From Campylobacterota bacterium (lineage in GTDB: Bacteria; Campylobacterota; Campylobacteria; Campylobacterales; Sulfurovaceae), in the NCBI GenBank assembly GCA_003252535.1, contig QKDN01000054.1, positions 62,001 through 126,000 on the forward strand: a stretch of DNA of 64,000 nucleotides, given 5' to 3'. The notes under the pieces were generated by a model that was not told the DNA's origin, did no database searches, and saw only the letters and a program-made list of their open reading frames with translations. Of this stretch, positions 16,146 to 57,334 are shown one piece after another. A program made the position numbers and the translations under genes. Positions within the stretch are counted from its first letter, which is position 1. Every line of letters starts with the position of its first letter.

Positions 16146-16177
16146 CATGTGATTTTTGGATTTCTCAGAAGTTATGT

Positions 16178-16183
16178 TATAAT
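16178..16183 (+). promoter_or_regulatory. -10 box of antisense RNA promoter, cassette copy 1
   Basis: TATAAT seven bases before GTTGGGACAG. The stretch CAGAAGTTATGTTATAATA before it is identical in copy 3 on the other strand, and the same box recurs in copy 2 with eight-base spacing, so it is a conserved part of the cassette. Confidence 0.75.
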
Positions 16184-16190
16184 ACCGCCA

Positions 16191-16364
16191 GTTGGGACAG
16201 ATGAGAGAGCGCCAACTCTCTCGCCTGCTTTTAATAGACTTTTGTCGCGATAAGCAACAAAAGAATAACAATTAGGATGATTCGCTCCATTGTTACTCCT
16301 CGTTAAAGGCTGACCCTGTCCCACCTCACGCCTCGCAATGAATCCTCACATCCCAATCGCCAAC
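16191..16364 (+). ncRNA. Predicted antitoxin antisense RNA, cassette copy 1 (Sib-like)
   Basis: A transcript from the TATAAT at 16178 would begin near GTTGGGACAG and run across the whole peptide ORF on the other strand. It can form a 5' hairpin (GAGAGAG 16203-16209 with CTCTCTC 16216-16222) and a long-range stem (TGGGACAG 16193-16200 with CTGTCCCA 16316-16323). The end point is set by homology with the other copies, not by a terminator. This arrangement matches Sib RNAs of E. coli, which overlap ibs completely. RNA has not been shown here. Confidence 0.6.
16231..16290 (-). CDS. Ibs-like hydrophobic toxic peptide, copy 1 (19 aa)
   Basis: Reads MERIILIVILLLLIATKVY then TAA. The core is one short membrane-spanning run of Ile, Leu and Val, closely resembling enterobacterial Ibs peptides of 18-19 residues. 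GAGGAG (16296-16301) lies five bases before the ATG, which is strong for so short a frame. Codon changes between this copy and copy 3 leave the hydrophobic pattern and the ATKVY tail intact. It probably inserts into the inner membrane and is toxic unless the antisense RNA blocks it; toxicity is inferred from the family resemblance. Confidence 0.72.
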   Translation of the reverse strand: MERIILIVILLLLIATKVY

Positions 16365-16376
16365 CGGCTTATGAAG

Positions 16377-16382: not shown

Positions 16383-16558
16383 TCACAAAGATATCGGTTT
16401 TTGAAAAAATATTTCATAATTAAATTTAGAAGAATCGAAATACGGTATTCTGATAGTAAGAGGTAGAGGAAAGACTCTTTTGCCCAAAGCCCCCGCTTCT
16501 AACCAAACTTTCGCTAAAATCCACTATTATTGAATTCACTACTCAAAAGGTTCACCCC

Positions 16559-20309: not shown

Positions 20310-20315
20310 TATAAT
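20310..20315 (+). promoter_or_regulatory. -10 box of antisense RNA promoter, cassette copy 2
   Basis: TATAAT eight bases before GTTGGGGCAG, preceded by a run of A residues. Same arrangement as copies 1 and 3. Confidence 0.7.
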
Positions 20316-20323
20316 TTTCGCTA

Positions 20324-20498
20324 GTTGGGGCAGGCAGAGAGTGGGGACTCTCTGCAAGCTTTTAGAATAACCGTTCGGTTAGCAATAACAAAACGATTAT
20401 AACGATCAAAATGCGTGCAAGCATTGTTGTGTTCCTTTCAAAAAGGCTGACCCTGTCCCACCTTCTCCTTACAATGCCTCGCAAAATTGATCGCCAAC
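20324..20498 (+). ncRNA. Predicted antitoxin antisense RNA, cassette copy 2 (Sib-like)
   Basis: 175-base cassette read from its TATAAT promoter. The 5' hairpin is GCAGAGAGT-GGGG-ACTCTCTGC (20334-20355), nine perfect pairs, different in sequence from copy 1 but at the same place. The long-range stem is kept with a G-U pair: TGGGGCAG with CTGTCCCA. The cassette ends in CGCCAAC as the other copies do. Transcription is predicted, not shown. Confidence 0.6.
20362..20424 (-). CDS. Ibs-like hydrophobic toxic peptide, copy 2 (20 aa)
   Basis: Reads MLARILIVIIVLLLLTERLF then TAA. It keeps the Arg-hydrophobic block-polar-tail design of copies 1 and 3 but has diverged in sequence and tail, so selection seems to act on hydrophobicity. 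AAAGGAA lies about eight bases before the ATG. The diverged cassette still preserves both promoters and the RNA pairings, which argues for function over decay. Confidence 0.68.
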   Translation of the reverse strand: MLARILIVIIVLLLLTERLF

Positions 20499-20516: not shown

Positions 20517-20566
20517 GCCATACTATATTGAGATCGATTAATAATATATCAATTTGAAATATATGT

Positions 20567-27033: not shown

Positions 27034-27047
27034 TCTCAAACCGCACC

Positions 27048-27126
27048 AAAAGAGAGCGCTCCTGCGCCATGCGAACGCAAGCGCCCATTTCATGGGTTGA
27101 GCGCATGGCTTCTCGCACTCTCTTTT
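27048..27126 (+). repeat. Structured leader element, copy A
   Basis: Outer stem AAAAGAGAG (27048-27056) with CTCTCTTTT (27118-27126), conserved stem CCATGCG (27067-27073) with CGCATGG (27102-27108), and inner stem CCCAT-TTC-ATGGG (27084-27096). The internal loop AACGCAAGCG is conserved in all copies except D. It ends 63 bases before hisIE and is followed by the palindrome TTTGTAC-G-GTACAAA. Confidence 0.7.
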
Positions 27127-31492: not shown

Positions 31493-31555
31493 AGTAACTG
31501 CCTTATAATATGTCAATATGCTATATTTTGGAAGGGTTTGATAAATCTTTGATAT

Positions 31556-31561
31556 TATAAT
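31556..31561 (+). promoter_or_regulatory. -10 box for the peptide mRNA, cassette copy 3
   Basis: TATAAT in GATATTATAATCTC, nine bases before GTTGGCGATC at the cassette edge. It is the clearest mRNA promoter of the three copies. Confidence 0.65.
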
Positions 31562-31570
31562 CTCAAGTCG

Positions 31571-31745
31571 GTTGGCGATCGAGCTATGGATATCATTGTG
31601 AGGCGTGAGGTGGGACAGGGTCAGCCTTTAACGAGGAGTAACAATGAGAACCCTAATCTTGATTGTTATTCTTTTGTTGCTATTCGCGACAAAAGTCTAT
31701 TAAAAGCAGGGTTGGAGAGCGGGAACTCTCCAGCCCTGTCCCAAC
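31571..31745 (-). ncRNA. Predicted antitoxin antisense RNA, cassette copy 3 (Sib-like)
   Basis: 175-base cassette, opposite orientation to copies 1 and 2. The antisense RNA would start near GTTGGGACAG (31745 downward). Its hairpin is GGTTGGAGAG/CTCTCCAGCC (31710-31735, one mismatch), and TGGGACAG pairs with CTGTCCCA (31736-31743) as in copy 1. Between copies 1 and 3 most differences are concentrated in this hairpin and in the peptide N terminus. Confidence 0.6.
31644..31703 (+). CDS. Ibs-like hydrophobic toxic peptide, copy 3 (19 aa)
   Basis: Reads MRTLILIVILLLLFATKVY then TAA. GAGGAG at 31633-31638 lies five bases before the ATG. It differs from copy 1 mainly at residues 2-5 and at 14 (Phe for Ile) and shares LIVILLLL and ATKVY. 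The peptide is short enough to be missed by gene finders. Likely a single membrane-spanning toxin controlled by the overlapping antisense RNA. Confidence 0.72.
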   Translation: MRTLILIVILLLLFATKVY

Positions 31746-31752
31746 TGACGGT

Positions 31753-31758
31753 ATTATA
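31753..31758 (-). promoter_or_regulatory. -10 box of antisense RNA promoter, cassette copy 3
   Basis: TATAAT on the minus strand, seven bases before GTTGGGACAG, with the same 19 upstream bases as copy 1. Confidence 0.72.
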
Positions 31759-31850: not shown

Positions 31851-32474
31851 TTACACAATACTGACTCTCTCTTTAGAAGTGAGAAGTCCGCCGGTAAAGT
31901 TTATGATTTTTTCTTTTACCTCCTCGGATGAAGATAGCTTCGCAGCTTCAAGTTCTGCCGGTGTAATGCCTACCACCTGCAATATATCGACTTCACCGGA
32001 TTGAAGAGAAAAACTTTCAGGGAAATTTAGAGGGTGGACGAACATCATGGTTTTGATGGTTTCCGATAAAGCAAGAGGAACTCGGTTTCCATAATCGAGT
32101 GGTGGAAAATTCCCCATTTTCCCGGCAGCAAGGAGTAAATTGTATGCCATCAAAGTTTGTAATACTTCGATAGCCCACATTTCTTCTTTACTGGTCTCCA
32201 TTAGAAACTCTACTCCAAGACCGGAATATTCTTCTGGAACTTCTGTTTCCCACGGATTTGACATACCGGAGGTGATATATGCCCATGTTTTTCTATTCTC
32301 ATTTGGAGGGCACTTAAATACACCATGCGTCAGCCAGCGGGGATCAACAGCATCCGAATTCATACGATTAAATATTTCAATTGACAACGGATAAATATCT
32401 GTTCCGATATCACCGAAAATGTTCTTGTATATTTTTTCTTCCCGTTCTTCCCAAGATTCTTCAAGAAAACTCAT
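31851..32474 (-). CDS. Suppressor-of-fused (Sufu) domain protein
   Basis: 207 residues. Segments such as DPRWLTHGVFKCPPNENRKTWAYITSGMSNPW, GLGVEFLMET, LQTLMAYN and VHPLNFPESFSLQSGEVDILQVVGITPAELEAAK follow the bacterial Sufu domain. Bacterial Sufu proteins are frequently immunity proteins in polymorphic-toxin loci, but no toxin is present here. The gene is AT-richer than the surrounding genes and stands alone next to cassette copy 3, hinting at acquisition. Confidence 0.83.
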   Translation of the reverse strand: MSFLEESWEEREEKIYKNIFGDIGTDIYPLSIEIFNRMNSDAVDPRWLTHGVFKCPPNENRKTWAYITSGMSNPWETEVPEEYSGLGVEFLMETSKEEMWAIEVLQTLMAYNLLLAAGKMGNFPPLDYGNRVPLALSETIKTMMFVHPLNFPESFSLQSGEVDILQVVGITPAELEAAKLSSSEEVKEKIINFTGGLLTSKERVSIV

Positions 32475-37239: not shown

Positions 37240-37280
37240 ATGGTTATGAATTTGAAGAGAACGGATGAAGCATCCGCTCC

Positions 37281-37358
37281 AAAAGCGAGAGCTCCTGCGC
37301 CATGCGAACGCAAGCATCCATACTATGGGTTTGGCGCATGGCTTGTCGCACTCGCTTT
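37281..37358 (+). repeat. Structured leader element, copy B
   Basis: Outer AAAAGCGAG with CTCGCTTT, conserved CCATGCG (37300-37306) with CGCATGG (37335-37341), inner CCAT-ACT-ATGG. It lies between the nas promoter and the ATG at 37444, so it is in the 5' leader. The outer stem differs from copy A in a paired manner (A-T to C-G). Confidence 0.7.
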
Positions 37359-39618: not shown

Positions 39619-39696
39619 CGCAATCCCGCCAAAATACTTCCTCCATTCTATACAATAGAGAGTTATAATAGCGGTATATATTTATGATAGGAGAGT
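39619..39696. repeat. 78-bp direct repeat, left copy (orphan promoter of the VWA gene)
   Basis: Identical to 41135-41212 except for one base (T for C at the sixth position). It includes TATAAT at 39664-39669 and the AGGAGAG ribosome site of the VWA gene but is followed by a palindrome rather than by the gene. It bounds, with the right copy, a 1.4-kb segment carrying two toxin-antitoxin pairs. Confidence 0.85.
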
Positions 39697-41134: not shown

Positions 41135-41212
41135 CGCAACCCCGCCAAAATACTTCCTCCATTCTATACAATAGAGAGTTATAATAGCGGTATATATTTA
41201 TGATAGGAGAGT
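41135..41212. repeat. 78-bp direct repeat, right copy
   Basis: Partner of 39619-39696 with one mismatch. Here it forms the real promoter and ribosome binding site of the VWA gene (TATAAT 41180-41185, AGGAGAG). Confidence 0.85.
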
Positions 41213-41217
41213 ATGAA

Positions 41218-42861
41218 ATGAAGAGATATGTATGGATGTCGCTGCTCTTTGCCGGCACGCTGCTGATGGCGGAGGCGCAGCGGGCGATGATAGTGTTTGA
41301 CGCGTCGGGGAGTATGTGGGGGCAGATAGACGGGAAAGCCAAGATCGAGATCGCCAGGGATGCGCTAGACGGCGTAGTGCGCACATGGAATCCCGAAGTG
41401 GAGCTCGGACTCACCGTATACGGACACCGGAGCAAGGGGGACTGCAACGACATCGAGACCGTCATCCCCGTGGGCAAGGTACAGAGCGCCAGGATACTCG
41501 CAGCAGTCGAGGGTATCCAGCCCAAAGGGAAAACGCCGATCAGCCGCTCCCTCAGGATGGCTGCCGATGCACTCAAAAATACAGAGGAGAAAGCCACGGT
41601 CATCCTCATCTCGGACGGCGAGGAGACCTGCGACCCCGATCCGTGCGGCACTGCCAAAGCCCTGGAGAAAGAGGGGGTAGATTTCGTCGCGCATGTGATC
41701 GGTTTCAATGTCGACCAGAAGACCGATGCGGAGCTGGAGTGTATCGCATCGGCGACGGGAGGCGAGTACTTTTCGGTCAATAACGCTTCGGCGCTCAACA
41801 ACGCGATGAAAACCATCGCAAAGAAGGTCGAAGAGCCGAAGCCTGAGCCAAAACCAGAGGTCAAAACTCCCGAAAACCCACTCGAGATCACGGCCTCCGA
41901 GACAGAGGGAGGGAAGTGGGTCGATACGCACTATATGATCTACAACGCCGAGACTGGTCGATACATCACCTCATGCGATTCCTACAAAGACCGCGCCTGT
42001 CTCAAGCCGCTCCCGGTAGGGAAGTACCTTCTGAAAGCTACCTACAATGAGTTCAAACAGGAGCAGAATTTCGAGATCAAACCGGGTGAAACACTCAAAA
42101 TCCATGTCGTAATGGGGCAGACTGGCGAAGTGGAGATCACAGCTTCCGAGACAGAGGGCGGGAAGTGGATCGATACCCACTACATGATCTATAAAGTAGA
42201 GACCAAGAAGTACATCAATTCGTGCAGCTCCTACAAAGACCGCGCCTGTCTCAAGCAGCTCCCCGTCGGAAAATATCTCCTCAAATCTACCTACAACGAG
42301 TTCAAACAGGAGCAGAGTTTCGAGATCAGATCGGGTGAAACACTCAAAATCCATGTCGTGATGGGGCAGACGGGAGAAGTGGAGATCACAGCTTCTGAGA
42401 ATGAGGGCGGGAAGTGGATCGATACCCACTACATGATCTATAATGCAGAGACCAATAAGTACATCACCTCGTGCAGCTCATACAAAGACCGTACCGGTGT
42501 CAAGCAGCTCCCTGTAGGGAAGTATCTGCTGAAATCAACCTATGGCGATTCCAAACGAGAGCAGATCTTCGAGATCGTATCGGGCGAAACGACCAGGCTC
42601 CATATTGTCTTCCCTCCGCTACAGATCGCCGCCAGATGTGCCGATCCCAAGGCGAAAGTGGAGCACGAGATATACGCTGCCGACGGCAAAAGGGTCTACC
42701 GCAAAAGAGAATCATGCGACAAAGCGGTGAAACTCTCTCTCCCCGAGGGGAACTACACCATAGAATCCAAAGTCGATCGCTTCAAGAAAGAGATGAATTT
42801 CACTATCTCCAAAAGCTCGCCCGACCATCTCGAGATCGACCTGACACCGACGGTGGAGTAG
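41218..42861 (+). CDS. Exported VWA-domain protein with three tandem 83-residue repeats
   Basis: 547 residues from ATG 41218. Signal peptide (cut near LLMAEA), then a von Willebrand A domain with the metal site DASGSMWGQ near 28-36 and ISDGEETCDPDPCG near 135-148. A PKPEPKPEVK linker follows, then three near-identical units beginning EITASETEGGKW(V/I)DTHYMIY, each ending with VGKYLLK...GETLKIHVVMGQTG. A fourth, degenerate unit closes the protein. Each unit looks like a carboxypeptidase-regulatory-type beta-sandwich. A periplasmic or surface binding role is likely, ligand unknown. Placed next to nitrate genes but not obviously part of them. Confidence 0.82.
   Translation: MKRYVWMSLLFAGTLLMAEAQRAMIVFDASGSMWGQIDGKAKIEIARDALDGVVRTWNPEVELGLTVYGHRSKGDCNDIETVIPVGKVQSARILAAVEGIQPKGKTPISRSLRMAADALKNTEEKATVILISDGEETCDPDPCGTAKALEKEGVDFVAHVIGFNVDQKTDAELECIASATGGEYFSVNNASALNNAMKTIAKKVEEPKPEPKPEVKTPENPLEITASETEGGKWVDTHYMIYNAETGRYITSCDSYKDRACLKPLPVGKYLLKATYNEFKQEQNFEIKPGETLKIHVVMGQTGEVEITASETEGGKWIDTHYMIYKVETKKYINSCSSYKDRACLKQLPVGKYLLKSTYNEFKQEQSFEIRSGETLKIHVVMGQTGEVEITASENEGGKWIDTHYMIYNAETNKYITSCSSYKDRTGVKQLPVGKYLLKSTYGDSKREQIFEIVSGETTRLHIVFPPLQIAARCADPKAKVEHEIYAADGKRVYRKRESCDKAVKLSLPEGNYTIESKVDRFKKEMNFTISKSSPDHLEIDLTPTVE
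41884..42630 (+). repeat. Three tandem 249-bp coding repeats
   Basis: Units start with GAGATCAC at 41884, 42133 and 42382, exactly 249 bases (83 codons) apart. Units 1 and 2 are nearly identical in DNA; unit 3 diverges toward its end. Such repeats can vary in number by recombination. Confidence 0.85.
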
Positions 42862-46154: not shown

Positions 46155-46213
46155 ACCGATATGAGAATGATCTGTATTCTGATCAAAGAATATACAAAGA
46201 CTTCTTAACTATA

Positions 46214-46302
46214 TCTCAAAAAGGTAGCGCTCCGGCGCCATGCGAACGCAAGCGCCTGTTGCACAGGTGAAGCGCATGGCTTGTCGCACTCTCTTTTTGA
46301 GA
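46214..46302 (+). repeat. Structured leader element, copy C
   Basis: Outer TCTCAAAAAG with CTTTTTGAGA (10 bp), conserved CCATGCG (46238-46244) with CGCATGG (46273-46279), inner CCTGT-TGC-ACAGG. Outer and inner arms differ wholly from copies A and B yet still pair. It lies between the nirA promoter and its ATG; the 3' arm carries a T run like an attenuator. Confidence 0.72.
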
Positions 46303-57240: not shown

Positions 57241-57334
57241 CCACTCAAAATACAAATATTCCTGCGCCATACGAACGCTTTTCCCCTTTTCAAGGGTTGA
57301 GCGCACTGCTTGTCACATTTGTTTTTGAGTTTGG
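57241..57334 (+). repeat. Structured leader element, copy D (degenerate)
   Basis: CTGCGCCATACGAACGC then CAAGGGTTGAGCGCACTGCTTGTC. The middle stem is weakened (CCATACG versus CGCACTG), but the long outer stem (CTCAAAATACAAAT with ATTTGTTTTTGAG) and inner CCCTT/AAGGG remain. It lies 38 bases before tetR. Confidence 0.58.

Follow-up and report, generated by a model that had tools for sequence, protein, structure and literature searches.

The window, by which we mean the whole analysed stretch of 64,000 nucleotides, contains three copies of a short cassette at positions 16191–16364, 20324–20498 and 31571–31745, where an earlier note on this DNA had placed them. All three are intergenic. Copy 1 is neighboured by the PPK2 gene and the PurT gene, copy 2 is located after a fumarate-reductase-like flavoprotein gene, and copy 3 has as neighbours a LamB-type porin gene and the SUFU-domain protein gene that adjoins it (31851–32474). 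The peptide is encoded on the minus strand in copies 1 and 2 and on the plus strand in copy 3. DNA and covariance searches of the source genome (2.92 Mb, 77 contigs) revealed nine copies, so that copy 1 is one of nine and not one of three, as had been counted before. Of the nine, seven are intact; in another the ORF is frameshifted by a deletion of 4 nt, and the last has lost its 3' end. The sequence GAGGAG five bases before the ATG, described earlier for the cassette, is present in copies 1 and 3 but not in copy 2, which has AAAGGA. The features of the three copies are as follows.

16174–16184, plus strand: predicted antisense (antitoxin) promoter of copy 1, extended -10 TATGTTATAAT
16188–16196, minus strand: 3' partner of the long-distance 5'-3' pairing of copy 1; on the plus strand, the predicted start of the antisense RNA
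16203–16222, minus strand: hairpin of copy 1 located 3' of the stop codon, with a conserved stem and a variable loop
16203–16222, plus strand: hairpin of copy 1 on the antisense strand, followed by GCTTTTA, terminator-like
16231–16290, minus strand: putative toxin ORF of copy 1, MERIILIVILLLLIATKVY, with the Shine-Dalgarno (SD) sequence GAGGAG
16360–16368, minus strand: 5' end of the putative toxin mRNA of copy 1, GCCGGTTGG, whose partner is the 3' end CCAACTGGC
16410–16426, minus strand: degenerate operator of copy 1, located as in other copies, with a score of 4.8 (above the 99% but below the 99.9% null level)
20310–20315, plus strand: predicted antisense promoter of copy 2, -10 TATAAT, extended by TATGC
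20362–20424, minus strand: putative toxin ORF of copy 2, MLARILIVIIVLLLLTERLF
20545–20561, minus strand: recA-type operator of copy 2, TATTTCAAATTGATATA, score 17.4
31509–31525, plus strand: recA-type operator of copy 3, TATGTCAATATGCTATA, score 17.5
31556–31561, plus strand: predicted toxin promoter of copy 3, -10 TATAAT
31567–31575, plus strand: 5' end of the putative toxin mRNA of copy 3, GTCGGTTGG, whose partner is CCAACTGAC
31644–31703, plus strand: putative toxin ORF of copy 3, MRTLILIVILLLLFATKVY, with the SD sequence GAGGAG
31714–31731, plus strand: 3' hairpin of copy 3, GGAGAG-CGGGAA-CTCTCC, with the variable, putative recognition loop
31741–31749, plus strand: 3' partner of the 5'-3' pairing of copy 3
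31753–31758, minus strand: predicted antisense promoter of copy 3, -10 TATAAT, extended by TG

Other repeats are also present in the window. REP-like repeats of 85 nt with GCGCCATGCGAACGCAAGC were identified at 27041–27125, 37274–37358, 46212–46296 and 57241–57325. A 78-bp repeat with a promoter-like and an SD-like sequence occurs at 39619–39696 and 41135–41212 (99% identical), and a 249-bp tandem repeat (41884–42459) lies inside the ORF 41200–42861.

The alignment of 62 sequences (A4) showed that the mRNA begins with CTAGTTGG(G)CGATTAT, followed by CATTGTGA, GGTGGGACAGGGTCAGCC, an AAAGGA or GAGGAG SD sequence and ACAATG. The coding part consists of the variable codons 2–5, the run I-V-I-L-L-L-L, K/R-x-Y and TAAAAGC, after which come a hairpin and then CTGTCCCAACTAG. 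Among 63 aligned ORFs, 48 encode 19 residues, 14 encode 20 and one encodes 18, and the peptide core is 97% hydrophobic; the 19-residue hydrophobic peptide with an SD sequence proposed in the earlier note is thus borne out, with a range of 18–20 residues. An SD sequence and a TAA stop were found in 63/63 ORFs, which is partly a selection effect because the set had been restricted to intact ORFs, and the intact fraction was therefore counted separately on matches of the covariance model. By our count, the frame is kept in about 39 of the 48 copies found by the model and not by the motif, and single-copy decay was noted in about 9 of the 48; it is thus not the case that frames are broken in most homologues, the outcome that the earlier note had held would speak against its reading. 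The pN/pS ratio of 0.49 from codon 6 to the end is only moderate, RNA structure lowering pS.

Several short ORFs that depart from this pattern were also observed. In two Sulfurimonas cassettes (L127 and L131), the reading frame continues past the usual stop, and both peptides thereby gain a common C-terminal extension (SEILFRNFT...). A second group, found in other Campylobacterales families (L214, L224, L226, L232 and L220), has peptides of 19–23 residues similar to FIVVIILLCIIAVKAY. Their ORFs are preceded by a strong promoter at a distance of about 60 nt and by a hairpin in the 5'UTR, another hairpin follows the stop codon, and no clear antisense promoter is present. Isolated Ibs-like ORFs of two further families, MLFRIVVLILVCLVFATKLY, MQQLLLIVILLMFVITKLH and MSKTMLIVALILVILVTKLY (L078, L079/L230 and L080), are likewise followed by a hairpin after the stop, with marginal E-values; E-values for distant peptides are weak.

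Five helices of the putative toxin mRNA were paired above the level of column shuffles. One joins the two ends of the mRNA, one the 5' end to the Ile-Val codons and one CATTG to the start codon, and the remaining two lie inside the ORF and downstream of the stop codon. Pairing amounted to 95% versus 88% in the shuffles for the 5'-3' ends, 91% versus 71% for the hairpin in the CDS, 89% versus 81% for the 3' hairpin and 87% versus 81% for the anti-start helix. The direction of the wobbles was identical in every varying helix, with toxin-strand and antisense-strand wobbles in ratios of 30:3, 113:5, 73:24, 48:25 and 54:16, counts that are not independent events since a single G-U column pair, almost invariant, supplies about half of the 113 wobbles and since the sequences are related to each other. 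Given the covarying base pairs and the toxin-strand wobbles, the comparison shows the predicted fold of the toxin mRNA to be under selection. For the three window copies, folding of the toxin strand gave z values of -6.3, -5.6 and -5.6 against dinucleotide shuffles (antisense strand of copy 3: -4.4), and the MFE folds of these toxin strands presented the same closed structure. The second partner of the start codon is the downstream ATTGTTAT, 98% paired, which is nearly invariant and so carries no evidence from covariation. The accessibility of the SD-AUG region did not rise after the in silico removal of the last 20 nt, so activation by 3' processing stays an analogy with Hok and AapA. A sense terminator was looked for at the cassettes and not found.

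The facing antisense promoter, also claimed earlier, was recovered as a near-invariant TATGnTATAAT in 68 aligned downstream flanks, and the predicted toxin promoters, which are weak or regulated, are more variable than it. The consensus promoter scan indicated no -35/-10 promoter at copy 1, so the promoters of this copy are assigned from the alignment of the family. In the antisense orientation, the first hairpin is followed by the conserved tail GCTTTTAAT, terminator-like and about 45 nt from the start. The earlier note expected an antisense RNA that covers the whole peptide mRNA; the promoter is suitably placed for this, but full cover was not confirmed given the terminator-like GCTTTTAAT tail, owing to which the antitoxin may cover the 3' UTR only. 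The antitoxin may therefore exist as an RNA of about 50 nt beside a read-through form. Between copies of the same genome, the loop of the 3' hairpin differs at 57–65% of positions and the stem at 1–9%, and the loops are distinct in 7 of 8 copies in one genome and in 11 of 11 in another. A hypervariable loop on a conserved stem is what would be expected if the loop served in loop-loop recognition.

About 65 distinct cassettes are known in Sulfurovum- and Sulfurimonas-type Campylobacterota. Covariance models matched cassettes in related genomes with E-values down to 1e-45, which places the cassette far from chance. The model R1, built from eight copies, matched two other genomes of the same genus and another genus of the family; one of the matched genomes carries 12 copies, three of them in tandem, and tandem copies spaced as in the genome G054 were also found in a Sulfurovum assembly (L094), so the family to which the window's genome belongs is probably that of Sulfurovum. 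The model R2 matched 10 of 175 genomes of the family, two of them with a weak or incomplete match, and, in a second family, eight genomes belonging to one genus. When 84,980 named species were scanned with the motif, matches came from Sulfurovum, Sulfurimonas and Campylobacterota assemblies with similar labels, together with a few chance intragenic matches. Matches of GGTGGGACAGGG within genes (L002+, L112, L122 and L126) were discarded as chance, and one weak model match (L081) was without an ORF.

A 17-bp palindrome, TATGnCAAWTTGnCATA, was detected in 32 of 71 toxin promoters, 59–63 bases before GTTGG, and in 1 of 68 antisense sides. The pattern is over-represented against a reversed control in the three genomes tested. 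A position weight matrix trained on recA and repressor sites alone splits the toxin promoters into two classes with a bimodal distribution; promoters without the operator have a stronger -10, and the operator accompanies weaker -10 hexamers (P = 0.0003). The same palindrome precedes recA in 12 of 12 genomes, with some sites weaker or displaced (in two genomes other than that of the window, the recA site is farther from the start codon), and a LexA/CI-like S24/Phage_CI_repr gene in 11 of 12; these regulon matches were obtained by searching with the pattern and with proteins. For the window's genome, the scores are 12.4 at recA and about 10 at the repressor gene, both weaker than the Sulfurimonas sites, and among the window cassettes the operator is good in copies 2 and 3 and degenerate in copy 1. 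The Sulfurimonas-type S24 protein (219 aa) combines an HTH of the Phage_CI_repr type with a Peptidase_S24 domain; on inspection, it also shows a NASAGG stretch together with GDSMEPT and FIKRV, motifs known from self-cleaving repressors. Palindromes upstream of S24 repressor and recA genes were recorded at L167–L178 and L190–L201. Operator-like sites also occur at genes for short CI-like HTH proteins of 70–85 aa (L180, L181 and L183–L185), and in the window's genome some operator matches have genes resembling REP-associated transposases in their vicinity (L146 and L152).

Sequence comparison thus shows that the putative toxin promoter shares its predicted operator with recA and the S24 repressor gene, and from these two genes we infer that it is the operator of a damage regulon. 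The position of the operator upstream of the -35 in all three gene classes, together with the weaker -10 hexamers, is odd for a simple repressor site. As the operator is shared with recA and the S24 gene, DNA damage probably raises the level of toxin mRNA, which suggests that the toxin may be switched on by DNA damage. With somewhat more confidence than doubt, we propose that an SOS-like S24-repressor regulon with the TATGnCAAWTTGnCATA box drives a new set of multi-copy, loop-barcoded type I toxins in Sulfurovum- and Sulfurimonas-type Campylobacterota.

The name Ibs/Sib-like, given to the cassette in the earlier note, holds as a functional analogy but not as family membership, according to profile, RNA-model and shuffle tests. 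The cassette shares with Ibs/Sib of E. coli (PF13956, RF00113) a 19-residue hydrophobic peptide, an SD-ATG arrangement, several copies per genome, a hairpin right after the stop and an antisense promoter 3' of the ORF. It differs in that its peptides have the positive TK/ER/LR near the C-terminal end, where Ibs has SFxA, in the covarying 5'-3' closure of the mRNA, in the recA-type operator and in an antisense RNA that may stop early. A true Ibs/Sib member that had moved between gammaproteobacteria and Campylobacterota would account for the peptide length, the M...AY frame and the post-stop hairpin and antisense promoter as in E. coli sibA/ibsA, and hhalign gave a probability of 89%; we nevertheless regard such a transfer as very unlikely. 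The best match to Pfam Ibs_toxin reached 12.1 bits against a cut-off of 27, a chance level that was also attained in 11 of 14 control genomes, and hmmscan found no match for the 20-aa members. The Rfam SIB_RNA model recognised the E. coli Sib loci at 1e-31 and none of the cassettes up to E=1, and real Ibs peptides scored no better against the cassette HMM than core-shuffled Ibs. Moreover, no intermediates were found, the matches of the motif scan being all from Campylobacterota apart from those due to chance. Pfam, NCBIfam and PADLOC gave only chance matches for the cassette peptides, and Rfam assigned no family to the window or the cassette loci. The suggestion of a separate, undescribed family is therefore supported by the lack of a match to Ibs_toxin or SIB_RNA; no link between Sulfurovum and type I toxins was found in the literature searched, and as far as we could find the family has not been described previously.

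The peptide might also be a regulated small membrane protein, benign or signalling, which the antisense RNA and the folded mRNA would tune. Short conserved hairpin peptides elsewhere in Campylobacterales, which are without a clear antisense promoter, agree with this, but multi-copy dispersal, hypervariable loops, the strong facing antisense promoter and the frequent decay of single copies fit a toxin-antitoxin system better, and we consider the small-protein explanation unlikely. Still less probable, to a degree that is almost negligible, is a dispersed MITE-like repeat with terminal inverted repeats and an incidental ORF. The size of about 180 bp, the multi-copy, intergenic and patchy occurrence and the complementary ends (CTAGTTGG...CCAACTAG) would suit such an element. 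However, the inverted ends lie inside a conserved block that spans both promoters and the operator, they covary and carry toxin-strand wobbles, which a DNA-level repeat would not need, and the frame is kept in most copies; we rejected this reading on the extent of the block and the strand-specific wobbles. The type I toxin-antitoxin architecture proposed earlier is supported, as the antisense promoter overlaps a small hydrophobic ORF, and we are confident that the cassette represents a new family of chromosomal type I toxin-antitoxin modules, with a folded mRNA and an S24/recA-type operator in about half of the copies. The covarying 5'-3' fold of the mRNA, the hypervariable loop and the recA-type operator had escaped the earlier note.

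Like AapA/IsoA of Helicobacter pylori, this module is found in Campylobacterota in several chromosomal copies, and covariation and folds point to 5'-3' pairing of its mRNA. The full-length AapA mRNA is made inert by a 5'-3' long-distance interaction and by sequestration of the start and SD sequence (PMC6733600, PMC8322730), and the cassette fold resembles the inert full-length mRNA of AapA3 with its metastable start-site hairpins (PMC6733600), which suggests comparable inertness here. The antisense promoter of the cassette, in contrast to that of AapA/IsoA, is located 3' of the ORF, so the 3' UTR is read first. That AapA peptides are different, as stated before, holds for length (30 aa in AapA1 versus 18–20 aa); for sequence, they are dissimilar by eye. 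The putative small membrane toxin, with a promoter apparently under a damage regulon and an antitoxin promoter that is not, recalls TisB/IstR-1 of E. coli (PMC11449926), but the cassette antisense is cis-encoded and overlapping, the peptide is not homologous and the operator is of the S24 CI-like type and not of LexA. HdiR and FddR are S24 repressors that are associated with small DNA-damage regulons in bacteria lacking LexA (PMC8565304, PMC13148647); in Campylobacterota, by comparison, the role of the S24 gene and of the TATGnCAAWTTGnCATA box is inferred. The cassette joins an Ibs-sized peptide, an AapA/Hok-like mRNA closure and a TisB-like promoter control.

Taken at the level of sequence, the cassette very probably encodes a membrane toxin of 19–20 residues whose expression is blocked both by the folding of its mRNA and by an RNA transcribed from the opposite strand. 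The 5' end of a toxin mRNA of about 180 nt would pair with the 3' end and with codons 6–9, and the AACAAUG start would be sequestered by the CAUUG of the 5'UTR or by the Ile-Val-Ile codons. Because of this end pairing and start sequestration, the full-length mRNA would be translationally inert and would need processing or remodelling before it is read, and the translated peptide would insert into the inner membrane and depolarise it. The stronger facing promoter would yield an antitoxin RNA whose first-hairpin loop complements the hypervariable 3' loop of the toxin mRNA, and the loop-loop contact would start duplex formation and decay by RNase III. Judging from the conserved stems and hypervariable loops, loop differences may keep copies of the same genome orthogonal. 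In about half of the copies, and in most of those in the window's genome, the shared operator stands at the toxin promoter, and there DNA damage probably lifts the toxin mRNA above the antitoxin threshold, as in TisB/IstR-1.

With the cassettes, a type I family that has apparently not been described before is seen in bacteria other than the pathogens from which such systems were defined, and its natural copies are numerous enough for the mRNA fold and the recognition loop to be read from covariation alone. If the S24-regulon reading is true, DNA damage would push the cells to membrane depolarisation and dormancy. The gene lexA is absent from the model members of the phylum, H. pylori and C. 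jejuni (PMC2912397), and the recA-type operator at the putative toxin promoters makes an SOS response in Campylobacterota directly testable. The up to a dozen differently looped copies per genome form a natural set for the study of antisense specificity.
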